Assembly (NCBI GenBank): GCA_013824115.1 | Contig: PNNG01000026.1 | Coordinates: forward strand, 62,001 to 126,000 | Reading direction: 5' to 3' | DNA: 64,000 nt | From: Sphingobacteriaceae bacterium | GTDB lineage: Bacteria; Bacteroidota; Bacteroidia; UBA7662 | Shown: piece by piece, positions 24,129 to 31,597 of the stretch | How positions within the stretch are numbered: the stretch's first letter is position 1 | How the letters are laid out: each line of letters begins with the position of its first letter | The notes under the pieces: model-generated | Databases searched by the model: none | The model's input: the letters and a program-made list of their open reading frames with translations, nothing else | What the model was told of the DNA's origin: nothing | Translations under genes and position numbers: made by a program

Positions 24129-24175
24129 ATTATCCTTGCAATTTTAAAACGTACTTCGAAAATTGCAAGGATAAT
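24129..24175. repeat. Left palindrome of cassette A
   Basis: Perfect 17-bp arms, ATTATCCTTGCAATTTT (24129-24145) and its complement (24159-24175), around a 13-base loop. It lies just after the 3' end of the leftward ATPase gene. Confidence 0.85.
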
Positions 24176-24197
24176 AGCGTTATTCATTCCATGCCAC

Positions 24198-25361
24198 TTA
24201 CCAGCACCAACCCTTGTGGCGAATGATTTGGAGGGTCTCGAATAAGCTCAGCAAGAAAATACCCGGCCTGAACTCACCTACGCTGTTTGATGGGGTGACC
24301 ACATGGTGCGGGATGTTAGGGAAATCCTTCATCGCTTCGGTATTGCCTTTGCTCAAGTGCGGACTGTTGCTGTACTTAAATTCGAAGCTCGCCACAGGCT
24401 TGTTGTTTTGCACCAATAGCAAATCGAGTTCGGCACCTGCGGCCGTCCGGTAGAAATAAGGATGGACGGTAGGCTTGAGCATCGAAACGATTTGTTGGAT
24501 GCCAAATCCCTCCCAAGAGGCTCCTTTGATCACGTCTCCTTCCAAGGCATTGAGGGTATCAATACCAGCTAACAGGTGCAAGAGTCCCGAATCGCGGATA
24601 TACACCTTGGGACTTTTTACCAAACGTTTTTGCTGGTTGGTATGAAATGGCTGCAAAGTTCGGATCAAAAACATCTGCTCAAAAAACTGCAGGTAGTTTT
24701 TCACCGTGGGCAGACTCAGTTGTGTGGCTTGTGCCAAACTGCTGTAATTGATCAGTTGGCCATGCACTGAGGTCAGCAACTGTAAAAACTGCTCGAGCTG
24801 TTGGGGAGTGGTCCGCAATTCAGCCGTGCCCAATTCGCGTTGCACATAGCTTCGGCTAAAATCGAGCAGCCATTCAAAAGCATCTTCATCGGCAGGGGCC
24901 AGGTACGAAAGGGGATAGCCGCCACGCAACCAAAGATTATCTCTGCTTTCGGCGCCTGTTTCTAGCAGTTGGAAGGGGTGGAGCTCACGAAAGTGAATGC
25001 GGCCAGCCAGGTTTTCGGAACTGCTCACCAGCAATTGGTCGGAGGCAGAACCCAGCAACAAAAAGCGTCCCGGACGGCGGTCGGCATCCACCAAACTGCG
25101 CAGCACTGGGAACAGCTCAGGCATGCGCTGCACCTCGTCAATGACAATGCGTTTGTCGGCATTTTTCTCTAGAAAGAACTCCGGATCGCTCAAACGCAGC
25201 TGATCTGAAGGTCGTTCTAGATCAAGATACAGGCTGTTGGAAGGGTCTACCAGCTGCCTGGCGAGCGTGGTTTTACCCACCTGTCGCGGTCCCAACAAGG
25301 CCACCACTGGGTACTTTCCCAAAGCCTTTTGCAAGCCAGATATAGCCAGTCTTTCAATCAT
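24198..25361 (-). CDS. AAA ATPase with DUF4143 domain
   Basis: 387 aa. Walker A is LLGPRQVGKTTLARQ near residue 23, Walker B is RIVIDEVQRMPEL, and the sensor-1 block is LLLGSASDQLLVSSSENLAGR. A winged-helix-like stretch follows (SYSSLAQATQLSLPTVKNYL region). The C-terminal DUF4143 part contains a PD-(D/E)XK-like set, AELDLLLV followed 13 residues later by EFK. These proteins are common in accessory DNA, and their cellular role is not well established. The start codon lies 2 bases from the palindrome that forms the right end of cassette A. Confidence 0.9.
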   Translation of the reverse strand: MIERLAISGLQKALGKYPVVALLGPRQVGKTTLARQLVDPSNSLYLDLERPSDQLRLSDPEFFLEKNADKRIVIDEVQRMPELFPVLRSLVDADRRPGRFLLLGSASDQLLVSSSENLAGRIHFRELHPFQLLETGAESRDNLWLRGGYPLSYLAPADEDAFEWLLDFSRSYVQRELGTAELRTTPQQLEQFLQLLTSVHGQLINYSSLAQATQLSLPTVKNYLQFFEQMFLIRTLQPFHTNQQKRLVKSPKVYIRDSGLLHLLAGIDTLNALEGDVIKGASWEGFGIQQIVSMLKPTVHPYFYRTAAGAELDLLLVQNNKPVASFEFKYSNSPHLSKGNTEAMKDFPNIPHHVVTPSNSVGEFRPGIFLLSLFETLQIIRHKGWCW

Positions 25362-25362
25362 A

Positions 25363-25406
25363 ATCCTTGCAAATTTAAAGTGTACTTCGAAAATTGCAAG
25401 GATAAT
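25363..25406. repeat. Right palindrome of cassette A
   Basis: ATCCTTGCAAATTT (25363-25376) pairs with AAAATTGCAAGGAT (25390-25403) with one mismatch. It shares its central GTACTTCG and right arm with the left copy in direct orientation, and overlaps the promoter region of the ATPase gene. Confidence 0.85.
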
Positions 25407-25482
25407 TTGAAAGGTGCTACTTGATTATATGCTTGGAAGTTGGTAGTGCAGTGGGTTTTTATGCTTCCTTGATGAAATGTAT

Positions 25483-25521
25483 TCCCTGCAAAATTAAAAA
25501 ATAATTTTAAATTTGCAGGGA
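25483..25521. repeat. Left palindrome of cassette B
   Basis: TCCCTGCAAAATT (25483-25495) pairs with AAATTTGCAGGGA (25509-25521) with one mismatch. The last base is also the A of the ATG of the ATPase gene, so the palindrome replaces the normal leader. Confidence 0.8.
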
Positions 25522-26684
25522 TGATTGAAAGGGGCTTGGCAGAAAAGCTGCGGCAAAGACTTCAAAGATTTCCTGCTGTAGGTGTTTTGGGTGCACGTCA
25601 GGTGGGTAAAACCACGCTGGTTCGAGAACTTTTAGCGAGCCTGGCGCAGCCATTTGTCTTTATTGATGCCGAGCGCCCTTCTGACAGAAGGAAAATTGAG
25701 GTGAACCCGGAGTTCTTCTTGGAAATGCACCGCGATAAATTGGTGGTGATTGATGAAGTGCAACATTTGCCTGCTTTGTTTCCGCTTTTGCGGGCAGAAA
25801 TTGATGAAATACGCAAAGCAGGACGTTTTTTGCTATTGGGCTCTGGCAGTCCCGAACTTCTGCGCCAAAGCTCTGAATCCTTGGCTGGCCGCATCAGCTA
25901 CCTCGAACTAGGTCCTTTAAATCTGTTGGAAGTACCGACCGATTGGCAGCGCTTGTGGCTGTTAGGTGGTTTCCCTGAAATTTGGAAGGAATCGCTTAAC
26001 CAGTCGGATGCACATGAATGGCTACAAGCTTACATAGCCACCTTAATTGGACGCGATTTGCCCATGATGGGCTTGTCAGCGCGTAAACTCGATTTGTTCC
26101 GCTTTATTTCTATGTTGGCCTACCTCCAAGGGCAGCCCGAAAACGCTGCTGAACTGTCGCGTTCGTTAGGCGTGAGTCAGCCAACTGTGAAAAATGCCAT
26201 TGATTTTTTGGAACATGCTTTTTTGATCCAGCGCTTACCAGCCTGGCACACGAATTTGCCCAAGCGAATGGTCAAAGTACCGCGATTGTATTTTAGAGAT
26301 AGCGGCTTATTGCACCAACTCTTGCACATCTCCTCTTTAGACGAATTGCTTGCACATCCCATCGCAGGGCATTCGTTTGAGGGCTTTATCATCAGTCAGT
26401 GTAAAGCCTTGTTGCCAACCAACTGGGAGATGTATTTTTACCGCACCCAAGACGGTACCGAGGCGGATATTGTGCTGGTAAAAGCCAATAAAGTACGTTT
26501 TCTGGTCGAAGTTAAGCTAGGTGCTTCCGAAAAGGTTACTAAAAGCATGCGGCAGTCGATGTGCGACTTACAGCCCGACCGACTTTTGATTGTCGGCGCC
26601 AAGGAAGCCGATTTTATGCTCGACGAACAGATTCAAGTGCTAGGCCCTTCAGCATGGGTGACCTTTTTACACTCGTTGAAGTAA
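25521..26684 (+). CDS. AAA ATPase with DUF4143 domain (second copy)
   Basis: 387 aa, same length and layout as the gene at 24198 but clearly diverged. Walker A GARQVGKTTLVRE, Walker B LVVIDEVQHLPAL and LLLGSGSPELLRQSSESLAGR are intact. After a winged-helix-like block (ELSRSLGVSQPTVKNAI) comes DUF4143 with TEADIVLV, then 13 residues later EVK, the same PD-(D/E)XK-like spacing as in the first copy. The start codon is fused to the palindrome at its 5' side, and a matching palindrome lies after the stop. Function unproven; DUF4143 ATPases are scattered, often in multiple copies, in Bacteroidota. Confidence 0.9.
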   Translation: MIERGLAEKLRQRLQRFPAVGVLGARQVGKTTLVRELLASLAQPFVFIDAERPSDRRKIEVNPEFFLEMHRDKLVVIDEVQHLPALFPLLRAEIDEIRKAGRFLLLGSGSPELLRQSSESLAGRISYLELGPLNLLEVPTDWQRLWLLGGFPEIWKESLNQSDAHEWLQAYIATLIGRDLPMMGLSARKLDLFRFISMLAYLQGQPENAAELSRSLGVSQPTVKNAIDFLEHAFLIQRLPAWHTNLPKRMVKVPRLYFRDSGLLHQLLHISSLDELLAHPIAGHSFEGFIISQCKALLPTNWEMYFYRTQDGTEADIVLVKANKVRFLVEVKLGASEKVTKSMRQSMCDLQPDRLLIVGAKEADFMLDEQIQVLGPSAWVTFLHSLK

Positions 26685-26722
26685 AATGTGAATCGCAAAA
26701 AGCGAAGCTTTTAATCTCAAAG

Positions 26723-26757
26723 CCTGCAATATTAAAACGTAATTTTAAAATTGCAGG
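26723..26757. repeat. Right palindrome of cassette B
   Basis: CCTGCAATATTAAAA (26723-26737) pairs with TTTTAAAATTGCAGG (26743-26757) with one mismatch. Confidence 0.8.
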
Positions 26758-26776
26758 GATAATGGGAAGCTTGGGA

Positions 26777-27145: not shown

Positions 27146-27150
27146 CATCA

Positions 27151-27277
27151 GCTTATCCAGAAGGACGGAGGGAACGGCCCTACGAAGTCCTGGCAACCGC
27201 AGCGTGAGACACTTGCCTCGCGTTGGCCTGGTGCCAATTCCGCTGCCACTAACAAATACTTGAGGCAGGAGATGAGC
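27151..27277 (+). ncRNA. SAM-I riboswitch (S-box leader)
   Basis: The conserved elements appear in order: GCTTATCCAG, GGAGGGAACGGCCC, ACGAAGTCCTGGCAACC, GTGCCAATTCC, and a closing GATGAGC. P1 forms between GCTTATC (27151-27157) and GATGAGC (27271-27277). The aptamer binds S-adenosylmethionine and should turn metH off when SAM is plentiful. The match to the S-box consensus is unmistakable. Confidence 0.95.
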
Positions 27278-27343
27278 AGGCAGTAATCAGCTAAAAAGGG
27301 CTGTGTGCTACTTGCAAGTCGGTACCCGAATCCTTCGGGGATG

Positions 27344-27370
27344 AGCTAAACGAAACGTTTGGCTTTTTTT
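27344..27370 (+). terminator. Riboswitch-controlled terminator abutting the metH start
   Basis: AGCTAAACG (27344-27352) pairs with CGTTTGGCT (27356-27364), one G-U pair, loop AAA, followed by a T-run to 27370. The metH ATG starts at 27371. A second copy of GATGAGC (27340-27346) overlaps the 5' arm and could pair with the P1 5' strand when SAM is absent. Confidence 0.85.
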
Positions 27371-30300
27371 ATGCAGTACGATATTCAAGAAGAAGTAAAA
27401 AAGCGCATCCTGGTGCTCGATGGCGCCATGGGAACGCAAATTCAGAACTACAAACTCACGGAGGCCGATTACCGCGGCAGCCGCTTTGCCGACTGGCCGT
27501 CGGACCTCAAGGGCAACAACGAGCTCTTGTCGCTCACCCAGCCACACATCATCGGAAACATCCACCGCGCCTATTTTGAGGCAGGTGCCGACATTGCCGA
27601 AACCAATACCTTCAATGCCCAGCGCATTTCGATGGCCGATTATGGCATGGAGGAGCTGAGCTACGAACTCAATTACGCCTCGGCCCAACTGGCACGCCAA
27701 GTGGCCGATGAATTCACAGCTGCCAATCCCGCCAAGCCGCGCTTCGTAGCCGGTGCCATGGGCCCTACCAACCGCACGGCCAGTATCAGTCCCGATGTGA
27801 ACAACCCCGGCTACCGCGCTATCGTTTTCGACGACCTGGTGGCTGCCTATTACGAACAAATCCGCGGCTTGGTCGACGGTGGGGTAGATGCCCTGCTGGT
27901 AGAAACCATTTTCGATACGTTGAATGCCAAGGCGGCGCTTTATGCCATCGACCAATATTTCCGCGACCACCAACGTGCACCGCTGCCCATCATGGTGAGC
28001 GGTACCATTACCGACAACAGTGGCCGTACGTTAAGCGGACAAACCGTGGAGGCATTCCTTTATTCAATGTCGCATTTGCCCTTGTTGAGCATCGGTTTGA
28101 ACTGCGCTTTGGGAGCAGCCCAAATGCGTCCGCACTTGCAGGCCTTGTCGAAAGCTGCCAAATTCCGCATTTCGGCCCACCCCAACGCGGGTTTGCCCAA
28201 TGCTTTTGGCGAGTACGATGAGAGTCCAGCCATGATGCGTGCCCACATCAAAGACTTCCTCGACAACAATTTTGTAAACATCATCGGTGGGTGTTGCGGC
28301 ACCTCGCCCGACCACATCCGAGAAATTGCGGCGGAGGCGGCTCTGCATCAGCCTCGGACCATGCCTGCCTTGGAGCCGGTGATGCACCTCAGTGGTTTGG
28401 AGCCGGTGAGCATCACCAAGCAGACCAATTTTGTGAACGTGGGTGAGCGTACCAACGTGACCGGTTCGCGTATGTTTGCCCGCCTCATTAAAGAAGAAAA
28501 GTACGACGAAGCCGTGGAAGTTGCCCGCCAGCAGGTGGAAAACGGCGCGCAGGTCATCGACGTGAACTTCGATGAAGGCATGCTCGACTCCGAAGCCGCC
28601 ATGACCCTCTTCCTCAACCTCATTGCCGCCGAGCCCGACATTGCCCGGGTGCCGGTGATGATCGACTCTTCCAAATGGAGCGTGATCGAAGCAGGATTGA
28701 AGTGTGTGCAAGGCAAGGCCATTGTGAATTCCATCTCGCTCAAAGAAGGAGAGGAGCGCTTCCGCTACTACGCCCATCAGGTGCGCGCTTATGGTGCCGC
28801 CGTGATAGTGATGGCATTTGACGAGCAGGGCCAAGCCGATAGTTATGAGCGCCGCACCGAAATCTGCCAGCGCGCCTACAACATCCTGGTGAATGAAATT
28901 GGCTTTCCAGCTGAAGACATCATTTTCGATCCCAACATCCTCACCGTTGCAACGGGCATTGAGGAACACAACAATTACGCGGTCGATTTTATAAAAGCTA
29001 CGCGCTGGATCAAGGAAAACCTGCCCGGCGCCAAGGTAAGCGGCGGGGTGAGCAACATCAGCTTCAGTTTCCGCGGCAACGACAAAGTGCGCGAAGCCAT
29101 GCATGCCGCCTTTTTGTACCACGCCATTCAAGCAGGTATGGACATGGGCATTGTGAATGCCGGCCAAATCGAAGTGTACGAAGAAATAGATAAAGAGCTG
29201 CTTCAGCATGTGGAAGACGTGCTGTTGAACCGCAGGGAGGATTCCACCGAACGCCTCATCCAGCTGGCCGAACAATACAAAGGTGGCAAAGGCAAAGAAG
29301 CCGCTGCCAAAGACGAGACCTGGCGCCTTGAACCCGTACAAACACGCCTTACCCACGCCTTGGTGAAAGGCATTGATGAATACATTGATGTGGACGTGGA
29401 AGAAGCCCGTCACCAATTCAGCAAGCCGCTTCAGGTGATTGAAGGGCCCTTGATGGCCGGTATGAACGTGGTAGGCGACCTTTTTGGCGCCGGCAAGATG
29501 TTTTTGCCGCAGGTAGTAAAAAGCGCCAGGGTAATGAAAAAGGCCGTAGCCTATCTAATGCCCTATCTCGAAGCAGAAAAGCTGGCTAACCCAAGTGAAA
29601 ACCAGCAAGCCAAGGGTAAAATTCTGATGGCAACGGTAAAAGGTGATGTACACGACATCGGCAAAAACATCGTGGGTGTGGTGCTGCAGTGTAACAATTA
29701 CGATGTAGTAGATCTCGGTGTGATGGTAAGCTGCGAAAAAATTCTCCAAGCGGCCATTGAGCATGAGGTGGATGTGATTGGCCTTTCGGGCCTCATTACC
29801 CCTTCACTCGACGAAATGGTGTTTGTAGCTTCCGAAATGGAGCGTTTGGGCATTAAAAAGCCTTTGTTGATAGGCGGTGCTACCACCTCCAGAGCGCATA
29901 CTGCTGTGAAAATAGCTCCTGTTTTCAATGGCACAGTGGTACATGTACTCGATGCCAGTCGCTCTGTGCCGGTGGTAAGTTCGCTGCTCAGTCACGAGCA
30001 GCGGGATGCTTTTGCCGCCAATACCAAGGTGGAATACGACAAACTGCGTGAGGGCTATTTGAGTCGTGGCCGCGAAAAGGCCATGCTGACCATCGACCAA
30101 GCCCGCGCCAACCGCTTCCCCATCGATTGGAAGGCCGAAGATTTGGCGGTTCCTGCTCAGCCCGGTATCCACGAATTCCGGAATTACCCGCTCGAAACGC
30201 TGGTAAATTACATCGACTGGACGCCCTTCTTCCAGGCTTGGGAATTGCATGGCAGGTACCCCAATATCCTGCACGACGAGGTAGTGGGAGAAGCTGCTAC

Positions 30301-31597
30301 CAAGCTCTTCGAAGACGCACAACACATGCTCAAGGCCATTGTGAAGGAGCAATGGCTGGATGCGCGGGCGGTTTTTGGTCTGTTTGGGGCCAATGCGGAA
30401 GGGGATGATATCGTTTTAGCCTCACCCCCGGCCCCTCTCCAGAGGAGAGGGGAGAGTGATTTTGGTAGCGAGAATAATGATACTGAACGAGGTGAAAAAG
30501 GTAGAAAGTCGAATGTGTTTAAGGCTTCACCTGATGCTTACGGCTTCCTCAAGCCTATTGCACGCGAGTTTAGAAAGGAAATGACACCTGCAGAAGAATT
30601 GCTCTGGAAGCACGTTCGGAATAGCCAACTTGGACATAAAATCAGAAGGCAGCATATCATTGAGAACTACGTTGTTGATTTTGTTTGCATTCAGAAGAGG
30701 TTGGTGATTGAGCTTGATGGCGGGGTTCATGCTTCACAAATAGAAGCAGATCGTCAGCGCGAATTGGATTTGAACGGCAAAGGATTTCAAATCATCCGTT
30801 TTACGAATGAGCAGGTTTTTGCTGATTTGGCAAAGGTGATAAATGAAATCAAATCAGAATTGGATAGCCGGCCGAATGTTGATGGAATTGATAATTATCA
30901 CGATGAATCGGATTTTGAAGGAACTCTTAAAAGCGCAGAGGAAGCTAGCGCCCCTCTCCCCTGGAGAGGGGATGGGGGTGAGGCTGAACCTTTCCGCTTT
31001 TTGAGTTTGAGGCAACAAGCCAAAAAAGCCGATGGCCTTCCCAATCTCGCCCTTTCCGATTTTGTAGCCCCCAAAGAAAGCGGCTTGCAAGACCATTTTG
31101 GTTTGTTTGCCGTGGGTGTATTTGGTGCGGAGGAGCGCGTAAATGAAATGAAAGCCGCCCACGATGACTACAACGCCATCCTGTTACAATCGCTTTCCGA
31201 TCGTTTGGCCGAAGCCTTTGCAGAGCATTTACATGAGCGTGTACGTAAAGAATATTGGGGTTACGAGCCGCAAGAACAACTCAGCAACGATGACCTCATC
31301 GCCGAAAAATACCGCGGCATTCGACCTGCCCCAGGTTACCCTGCTTGTCCCGACCACCTCGACAAACGTACCCTCTGGAACGTGCTGCAGGTGGAAAAAA
31401 GAATTGGCCTGACCCTCACCGAATCGATGGCCATGTGGCCTGCCGCTGCGGTGAGTGGCTATTACCTTGCCCATCCTCAATCAAAGTATTTCGGAGTTGG
31501 TAAAATCGACAAAGACCAGGTAGAGGACTACGCCCAGCGCCGAGGAGTATCCTTGAAAGAGGCTGAAAAGTGGTTAGCGCCAGCGTTGAATTATTGA
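27371..31597 (+). CDS. metH: Cobalamin-dependent methionine synthase with in-frame DUF559 insertion
   Basis: Transfers a methyl group from methyltetrahydrofolate through cobalamin to homocysteine. The order is homocysteine domain (about 1-330; Zn Cys residues in GLNCALGA and GGCCGTSP), pterin domain (about 350-620; [13 protein letters not shown]), B12 domain (about 650-890; [10 protein letters not shown], whose His ligates cobalt) and SAM-activation domain ([12 protein letters not shown]). Total length is 1408 aa; the family norm is about 1220. The excess of about 190 residues is one block (about 1016-1205) within the activation domain, between EGDDI and [10 protein letters not shown], encoding a DUF559 endonuclease domain flanked by inverted repeats. 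The frame is unbroken. ATG 27371 follows the riboswitch terminator; the TTG at 27359 is unlikely. Activity with the insertion cannot be judged from sequence. Confidence 0.96.
30418..30452. repeat. Left terminal repeat of the DUF559 cassette
   Basis: 12-bp terminal sequence AGCCTCACCCCC, then a 9-bp hairpin CCCCTCTCC (30432-30440), loop AGA, GGAGAGGGG (30444-30452). Translated in the metH frame it reads [12 protein letters not shown]. Confidence 0.9.
30951..30985. repeat. Right terminal repeat of the DUF559 cassette
   Basis: Inverted copy of the left end: hairpin CCCCTCTCC (30951-30959), loop CCT, GGAGAGGGG (30963-30971), then GGGGGTGAGGCT (30974-30985). Both inner stems and outer 12 bases match the left end exactly. 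Confidence 0.9.

Follow-up and report, generated by a model that had tools for sequence, protein, structure and literature searches.

Two adjacent AAA_14-DUF4143 cassettes in a Bacteroidota genome, each probably packaged with a recognition site for its own nuclease

Two single-gene cassettes lie next to each other in the window analysed here, a stretch of 64,000 nucleotides from a 2.84 Mb Bacteroidota draft genome (G000), and each probably combines the gene of a self-specific, ATP-dependent PD-(D/E)XK nuclease with the site that this nuclease recognises, the upstream copy of which would be autoregulatory. Comparative sequence analysis establishes the palindromes, the boundaries of the units, a residue-base code and the occurrence of solo sites. 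The evidence is comparative throughout, and most of the genomes that contribute to it are drafts and MAGs.

Both ORFs match the AAA_14 and DUF4143 HMMs above cut-off, and both also match the PADLOC HMM for PDC-S01. The Walker and PD-(D/E)XK residues (K30, T32, D75, E76, E311, D313, E327 and K329; residue numbering follows ORF A) are invariant in 78 sequences that include A and B, and a PDB sequence search returned only weak matches to ATPases (2qen and 2fna). PDC-S01, the same family as A and B by HMM, is a very widespread single-gene phage-defence candidate and reportedly ranks fourth in frequency among the putative defence systems of prokaryotes; its listing rests on genomic association, and most such defence candidates still await experimental validation (PMC12988326). 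The family is already known as this PADLOC candidate, and its palindromes and code are apparently unreported in the open-access literature, where the passages on PDC-S01 yielded no description of palindromes, a recognition code or cassette boundaries. The cassettes share with the candidate the fusion of an ATPase to a PD-(D/E)XK domain in one gene; a role in defence is not needed to explain the data presented here.

Two DUF4143 cassettes and their palindromes

ORF A (24198..25361, minus strand) and ORF B (25521..26684, plus strand) have the same domain architecture, an AAA+ ATPase (AAA_14), a wHTH and a PD-(D/E)XK nuclease domain (DUF4143). A first-pass annotation of this DNA had described two adjacent DUF4143 cassettes on opposite strands, each with its own palindrome family, and had noted that the ORFs are equal in length yet diverged. 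The ORFs, HMM matches and coordinates bear out the first statement, and the second is correct as well, with both proteins 387 amino acids long and 42-44% identical (42% over the full alignment).

The ends of both cassettes are imperfect palindromes arranged as direct repeats, with the two ends of a cassette in the same orientation, a feature that the first-pass annotation does not mention. The 47-bp upstream palindrome of cassette A (25360..25406, minus strand) overlaps the start and holds a promoter-like element, TTG-N19-TAAATTTG, and its downstream palindrome (24129..24175, minus strand), the outer arms of which are perfect over 17 bp, lies 22 nt past the stop codon. The upstream palindrome of cassette B (25479..25525, plus strand; 47 bp) also holds TAAATTTG, and the downstream one (26717..26763, plus strand) lies 32 nt past the stop codon. 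The right end of the upstream B palindrome overlaps the ATG, as had been claimed; the spacing of two bases given for cassette A needs correction, with the core of that palindrome ending one base before the ATG and its outermost bases overlapping it. The ends do match better inside a cassette than between cassettes, at 43/47 positions in A and 37/47 in B compared with 30-36/47 between A and B palindromes.

The half-palindrome pattern has eight matches in the window, all of them at cassettes A and B, where 0.20 would be expected, and none of 100 shuffles reaches eight. Across the 2.84 Mb genome with its 11 DUF4143 genes, palindromes of the form TCCYTGCAA..TTGCARGGA are confined to the two cassettes.

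Two familiar kinds of repeat were considered for these ends and rejected: dispersed repeats of the REP or MITE type, since there are no other copies in the genome, and a DDE transposon or insertion sequence with inverted terminal repeats, since the ends are palindromic direct repeats and there is no DDE domain. Two distant DUF4143 genes of the same genome, L001 (877-918) and L008 (886-926), have unrelated upstream palindromes (AGTTATAACT.. and TACTTAATA.., respectively) without a matching downstream copy.

Palindromes among the relatives

The first set of relatives comprised 80 from GTDB genomes and six from viral contigs, and later additions from whole genomes and plasmids gave an enlarged set of 160 non-redundant genes from several phyla. 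In the first set, with upstream palindromes counted at a score of at least 10, 57.5% of relatives have such a palindrome, and the rate is only 1.7% for dinucleotide shuffles and 4.7% for the other genes of those loci; the corresponding figures for a downstream palindrome are 33.7%, 0.8% and 11.1%. Elsewhere in the loci of this set, no second copy turned up. In the enlarged set, 105/160 relatives have a palindrome just 5' of the start codon and about a third have no clear palindrome by the score used. Most centres precede the ATG by about 19-22, 30-34 or 38-42 bases. A second copy is present in 27 of the 114 relatives with a usable palindrome, and all but one of these copies fall at -5 to +32 nt of the stop codon. 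When half-sites are compared without sequence-based alignment, G10 (99%) and A12 (95%) are near-invariant, and positions 6-9 and 11 are variable.

Several phyla contain relatives, as do 354 plasmids. The members on proteobacterial plasmids retain an upstream palindrome (in one example, ATCCTTGCAAAT..ATTGCAAGGATGATT, it encloses the ATG) and are without a second copy. Phage records contain only distant relatives, at 23-29% identity.

The palindrome centres also group at intervals of about 10 bp (-19/-20, -30 to -34, -38 to -42 and -50 to -54), as though aligned along the same side of the helix. Two nearby DUF4143 cassettes are found in three further loci (L042, 2995-5443; L213, 1494-3943; L099, 3001-7109), which suggests that side-by-side cassettes recur; those of L042 are 100 bp apart and have different palindromes.

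A residue-base code for predicted recognition

When protein columns are compared with half-site positions by mutual information, the pair formed by residue 308 and position 8 stands far ahead of all else. Counted over half-sites, an acidic residue 308 goes with C8 in 84/84 cases (D 80/80, E 4/4), a small one with T8 in 59/62 (A 47/50; G and T 12/12), an amide with A8 in 22/22 (Q 16/16, N 6/6) and histidine with G8 in 8/8; K, R, S and V at this residue are ambiguous for position 8. His307 is accompanied by A at position 11 in 56/72, and other residues at 307 mostly by C or T. Both residues directly precede E311 and D313 of the PD-(D/E)XK motif, and it is from the E311/D313/E327-x-K329 motif alone that we infer how they are placed relative to the DNA. 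In the recognition helix of the wHTH, residue 218 pairs with inner position 18 (K and H with G; P, V and I with A), and residues 216 and 217 rank next, for positions 19 and 17, once uninformative DNA positions are removed. These pairings agree with familiar contacts between amino acids and bases.

The observed value was reached over all pairs in 0/200 permutations for 308/8, 0/200 for 218/18 and 2/200 for 307/11; the associations of residues 216 and 217 fail this test on their own (28/200 and 36/200). Associations involving positions 10 and 12 were excluded as artefacts of near-invariant bases. A distance-matrix (Mantel) test gave only r = 0.31, and hid a signal that the residue-level test later revealed.

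Shared ancestry was addressed with phylogenetically independent contrasts, for which the tree was built without residues 300-318. Position 8 changes independently at least 21 times on the tree, and residue 308 comes first of all columns in the contrasts (0.71; next 0.43). Among 17 independent pairs of tips with differing position-8 bases, both tips fit the code in 11 and the same residue is found in a single pair, which involves a GC-rich and probably spurious palindrome. With the rule fixed beforehand, new cassettes with a median identity of 52% to the training set fit it at position 8 in 38/42 half-sites, for His307 with A11 in 14/14 and for residue 218 with position 18 in 25/28.

Cassettes A and B obey the same code. 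Half-site positions 11 and 8 would be read by the Ala-Ala of codons 307-308 in A (24438..24443, minus strand), with C11 and T8, and by the equivalent Gln-Asp of codons 310-311 in B (26448..26453, plus strand), with C11 and C8; Ala308 is found with T8 in 4/4 half-sites, and Asp with C8 in 4/4. The two palindrome families that the first-pass annotation had distinguished, TTGCAAGGAT for A and TTGCAGGGAT for B, differ at this very position. The inner positions 17-19 would be read by codons 216-218 of the wHTH recognition helix in A (Ser-Leu-Pro; 24708..24716, minus strand) and by their equivalents in B (Ser-Gln-Pro; 26175..26183, plus strand). The downstream copy of the palindrome also follows the code of its protein.

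A natural contrast is provided by the asnS-metH locus within one genus, where genomes with His307 have A11 and two others (G027 and G028) have Gln307 with T11 in 4/4 half-sites. A further cassette at this locus (L161, in G032) has His307, with T11 in the left half and A11 in the right half of both its palindromes, and would appear to be an evolutionary intermediate.

The annotation had suggested recognition specific to each cassette and had proposed a check on co-variation of the palindrome with the HTH or the nuclease part. Co-variation is seen with both, and similar palindromes were not found at unrelated genes. These results support a predicted self-specific recognition of a long palindrome by the protein of the cassette itself.

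Promoter overlap and a model of self-recognition

A -7 box of the Bacteroidota type, TAnnTTTG, has a fixed position relative to the palindrome centre, 6 bases beyond it in the near class and about 27 bases in the far class, and usually starts 12-13 bases before the ATG. Because this position is fixed, the palindrome contains or abuts the promoter, and the earlier suggestion that the palindromes could be operators or carry promoters is strengthened accordingly. The palindrome thus lies over the promoter from which its own predicted binder would be expressed, as an operator would, and this arrangement makes it likely that the cassette gene is autoregulated via its upstream palindrome.

In the model that we favor, a dimer of the protein would occupy the 47-bp palindrome, each protomer covering one 23-bp half-site, with the wHTH recognition helix touching the inner positions (17-19) and a loop beside the nuclease active site reading the outer ones (8 and 11). 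On the upstream copy, over the promoter and the start codon, the protein would most likely hold its own expression low. From the comparison of sequences we infer, besides dimeric binding and autoregulation, cleavage at or near the palindrome; cutting of its own palindrome would need protection of the carrier chromosome, which the model leaves unexplained. The second palindrome of the two-copy form, near the stop codon, bounds a pal-ORF-pal unit that is found at different loci in different lineages and that, in this model, was lost repeatedly with one palindrome left behind. Cassettes A and B would then be two units of different specificity that are now side by side.

A rival reading, to which we assign somewhat less than even probability, is that the palindrome is an autoregulatory operator and nothing else, with the nuclease acting elsewhere (for instance on phage DNA) and the downstream copy arising as a by-product of local duplication. 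It would account well for an upstream copy that is general and lies over the promoter and for a downstream copy that is optional, and it fits the listing of the family as phage-defence candidate PDC-S01 (PMC12988326). However, specificity is determined by more than the wHTH, its strongest determinant being in the nuclease part of the protein, adjacent to the catalytic residues, and the downstream copy, which autoregulation does not explain, recurs near the stop codon in several independent lineages and obeys the code of the protein.

Unit boundaries, solo sites and probable loss

Where cassettes of similar sequence have unrelated flanks, homology ends at the edges of the palindromes (for example in cassettes with 76-79% nucleotide identity, such as L058 with L059 and L065 with L066). 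The shared stretches run from -59 to +38 in L058 and L059, from -60 to +39 in L057 and L058 and from -63 to +41 in L118 and L239, and the one-copy members L065 and L066 share exactly -42 to 0. Decay of similarity outside constrained sequence could also contribute to such edges, but at 70-89% nucleotide identity many orthologous flanks would still be alignable.

Single palindromes are found in places where relatives have a cassette. A congener (G001) has an orthologue of A (84%), and the place of B holds one solo B-type palindrome; another (G002) has neither cassette and shows a decayed palindrome-like sequence. At the asnS-metH locus, cassettes coexist with solo palindromes (G041, G034 and G043), with a remnant made up of the C-terminus of the ORF and one palindrome (G036) and with a scar (G037). 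In three of the four cases the solo site is joined on its left to the flank that precedes the left copy and on its right to the flank that follows the right copy; in the fourth, G001, the flanks have diverged too far for this comparison. Duplication was not seen beyond the palindrome. Since the cassette tree agrees with the asnS tree at this locus, the solo sites would most simply be repeated losses, for which a recombination event across the pair of 47-bp direct repeats would be enough and in which the enzyme's own action may have taken part. That the solo palindromes are pre-existing targets in the host is not supported, as other genera have no palindrome upstream of metH and the phylogeny points to loss.

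A homing-like or transposing mobile element, in which cleavage of a solo palindrome by the nuclease is followed by copying of the pal-ORF-pal unit into it, would make the palindromes both target and ends. Such mobility would add to self-recognition and is compatible with it; we regard it as possible, on the doubtful side of even. Cassettes at unrelated loci that share sequence just to the palindrome edges (L058 with L059, L065 with L066), solo palindromes at the same site in relatives, at least 10 changes of the two-copy state on the tree, differing cassettes adjacent here and in L042 and L213, and the spread over phyla and plasmids described above all speak for it. Against this, cassette and host trees agree at the best-sampled locus, the seven genomes with matches in a scan have one cassette each and no free solo copies, three quarters of the palindrome-bearing relatives are without a second copy, and the target would survive insertion intact; no case was seen in which a cassette had entered a pre-existing palindrome, and other genera of the family lack one upstream of metH. 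Self-driven mobility of the cassettes is plausible on these data, and only tentatively would we regard AAA_14-DUF4143 genes as a new class of minimal mobile element, with a 47-bp palindrome that an ATP-dependent nuclease reads by a simple code of two modules and that serves as operator and ends and is cut for spread or excision.

It is very improbable that the palindromes are RNA hairpins (terminators or attenuators) or chance AT-rich inverted repeats whose co-variation reflects phylogenetic inertia: the arms could pair in RNA and cassettes within a clade are related, but the palindromes are enriched over shuffles and other genes, the code is upheld by contrasts, permutations and held-out data, the last of which already contradict such a reading, and the upstream copy, spanning promoter and start, is probably mostly untranscribed.

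Two cassettes that are 97% identical (L088 and L090) have a neighboring 1.87-kb segment that is to the left of the cassette in L088 but to its right in L090, which suggests rearrangement or movement, and repeats of about 219 bp surround the L088 cassette.

Comparison with known systems

Homing endonucleases of the I-Ssp6803I type have a PD-(D/E)XK fold and a long, pseudo-palindromic, self-specific target. The cassette protein resembles them in self-specificity, as judged by co-variation, but it has a fused AAA+ ATPase and a wHTH, it has no host intron or intein, and the target stays whole, with full palindromes at one or both ends of the gene. In restriction-modification systems with control proteins and in toxin-antitoxin operons, a palindromic site over the promoter is bound by the operon's own product; the cassette site, unlike those operators, is apparently read by the nuclease domain too and often has a second copy close to the stop codon. 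REP/RAYT and IS200/IS605 elements likewise have short palindromes that end a single-gene unit, whereas the cassettes have no HUH/Y1 domain and their palindromes are not dispersed.

Knowledge of the site and the reading residues of each PDC-S01 member makes the family directly testable, and specificity tests for A and B can be designed from their sequences alone. A modular, readable code in a nuclease with a long site is also relevant to the field of DNA recognition. The defence label of these genes should be used with caution, as it may be wrong or incomplete; were they mobile elements, the abundance of the family would reflect selfish spread instead of, or besides, defence.

Sequences adjoining cassette B

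Directly beyond cassette B and upstream of metH, a SAM riboswitch is present at 27150-27278 on the plus strand (Rfam RF00162, 71.7 bits). The MetH ORF of the window (27359-31597) encodes 1412 amino acids, about 185 more than the open frames of the congeners G001 and G002 (1227-1229). By eye, the additional part (about 30400-30960) resembles a DUF559/Vsr-like endonuclease domain inserted in frame.
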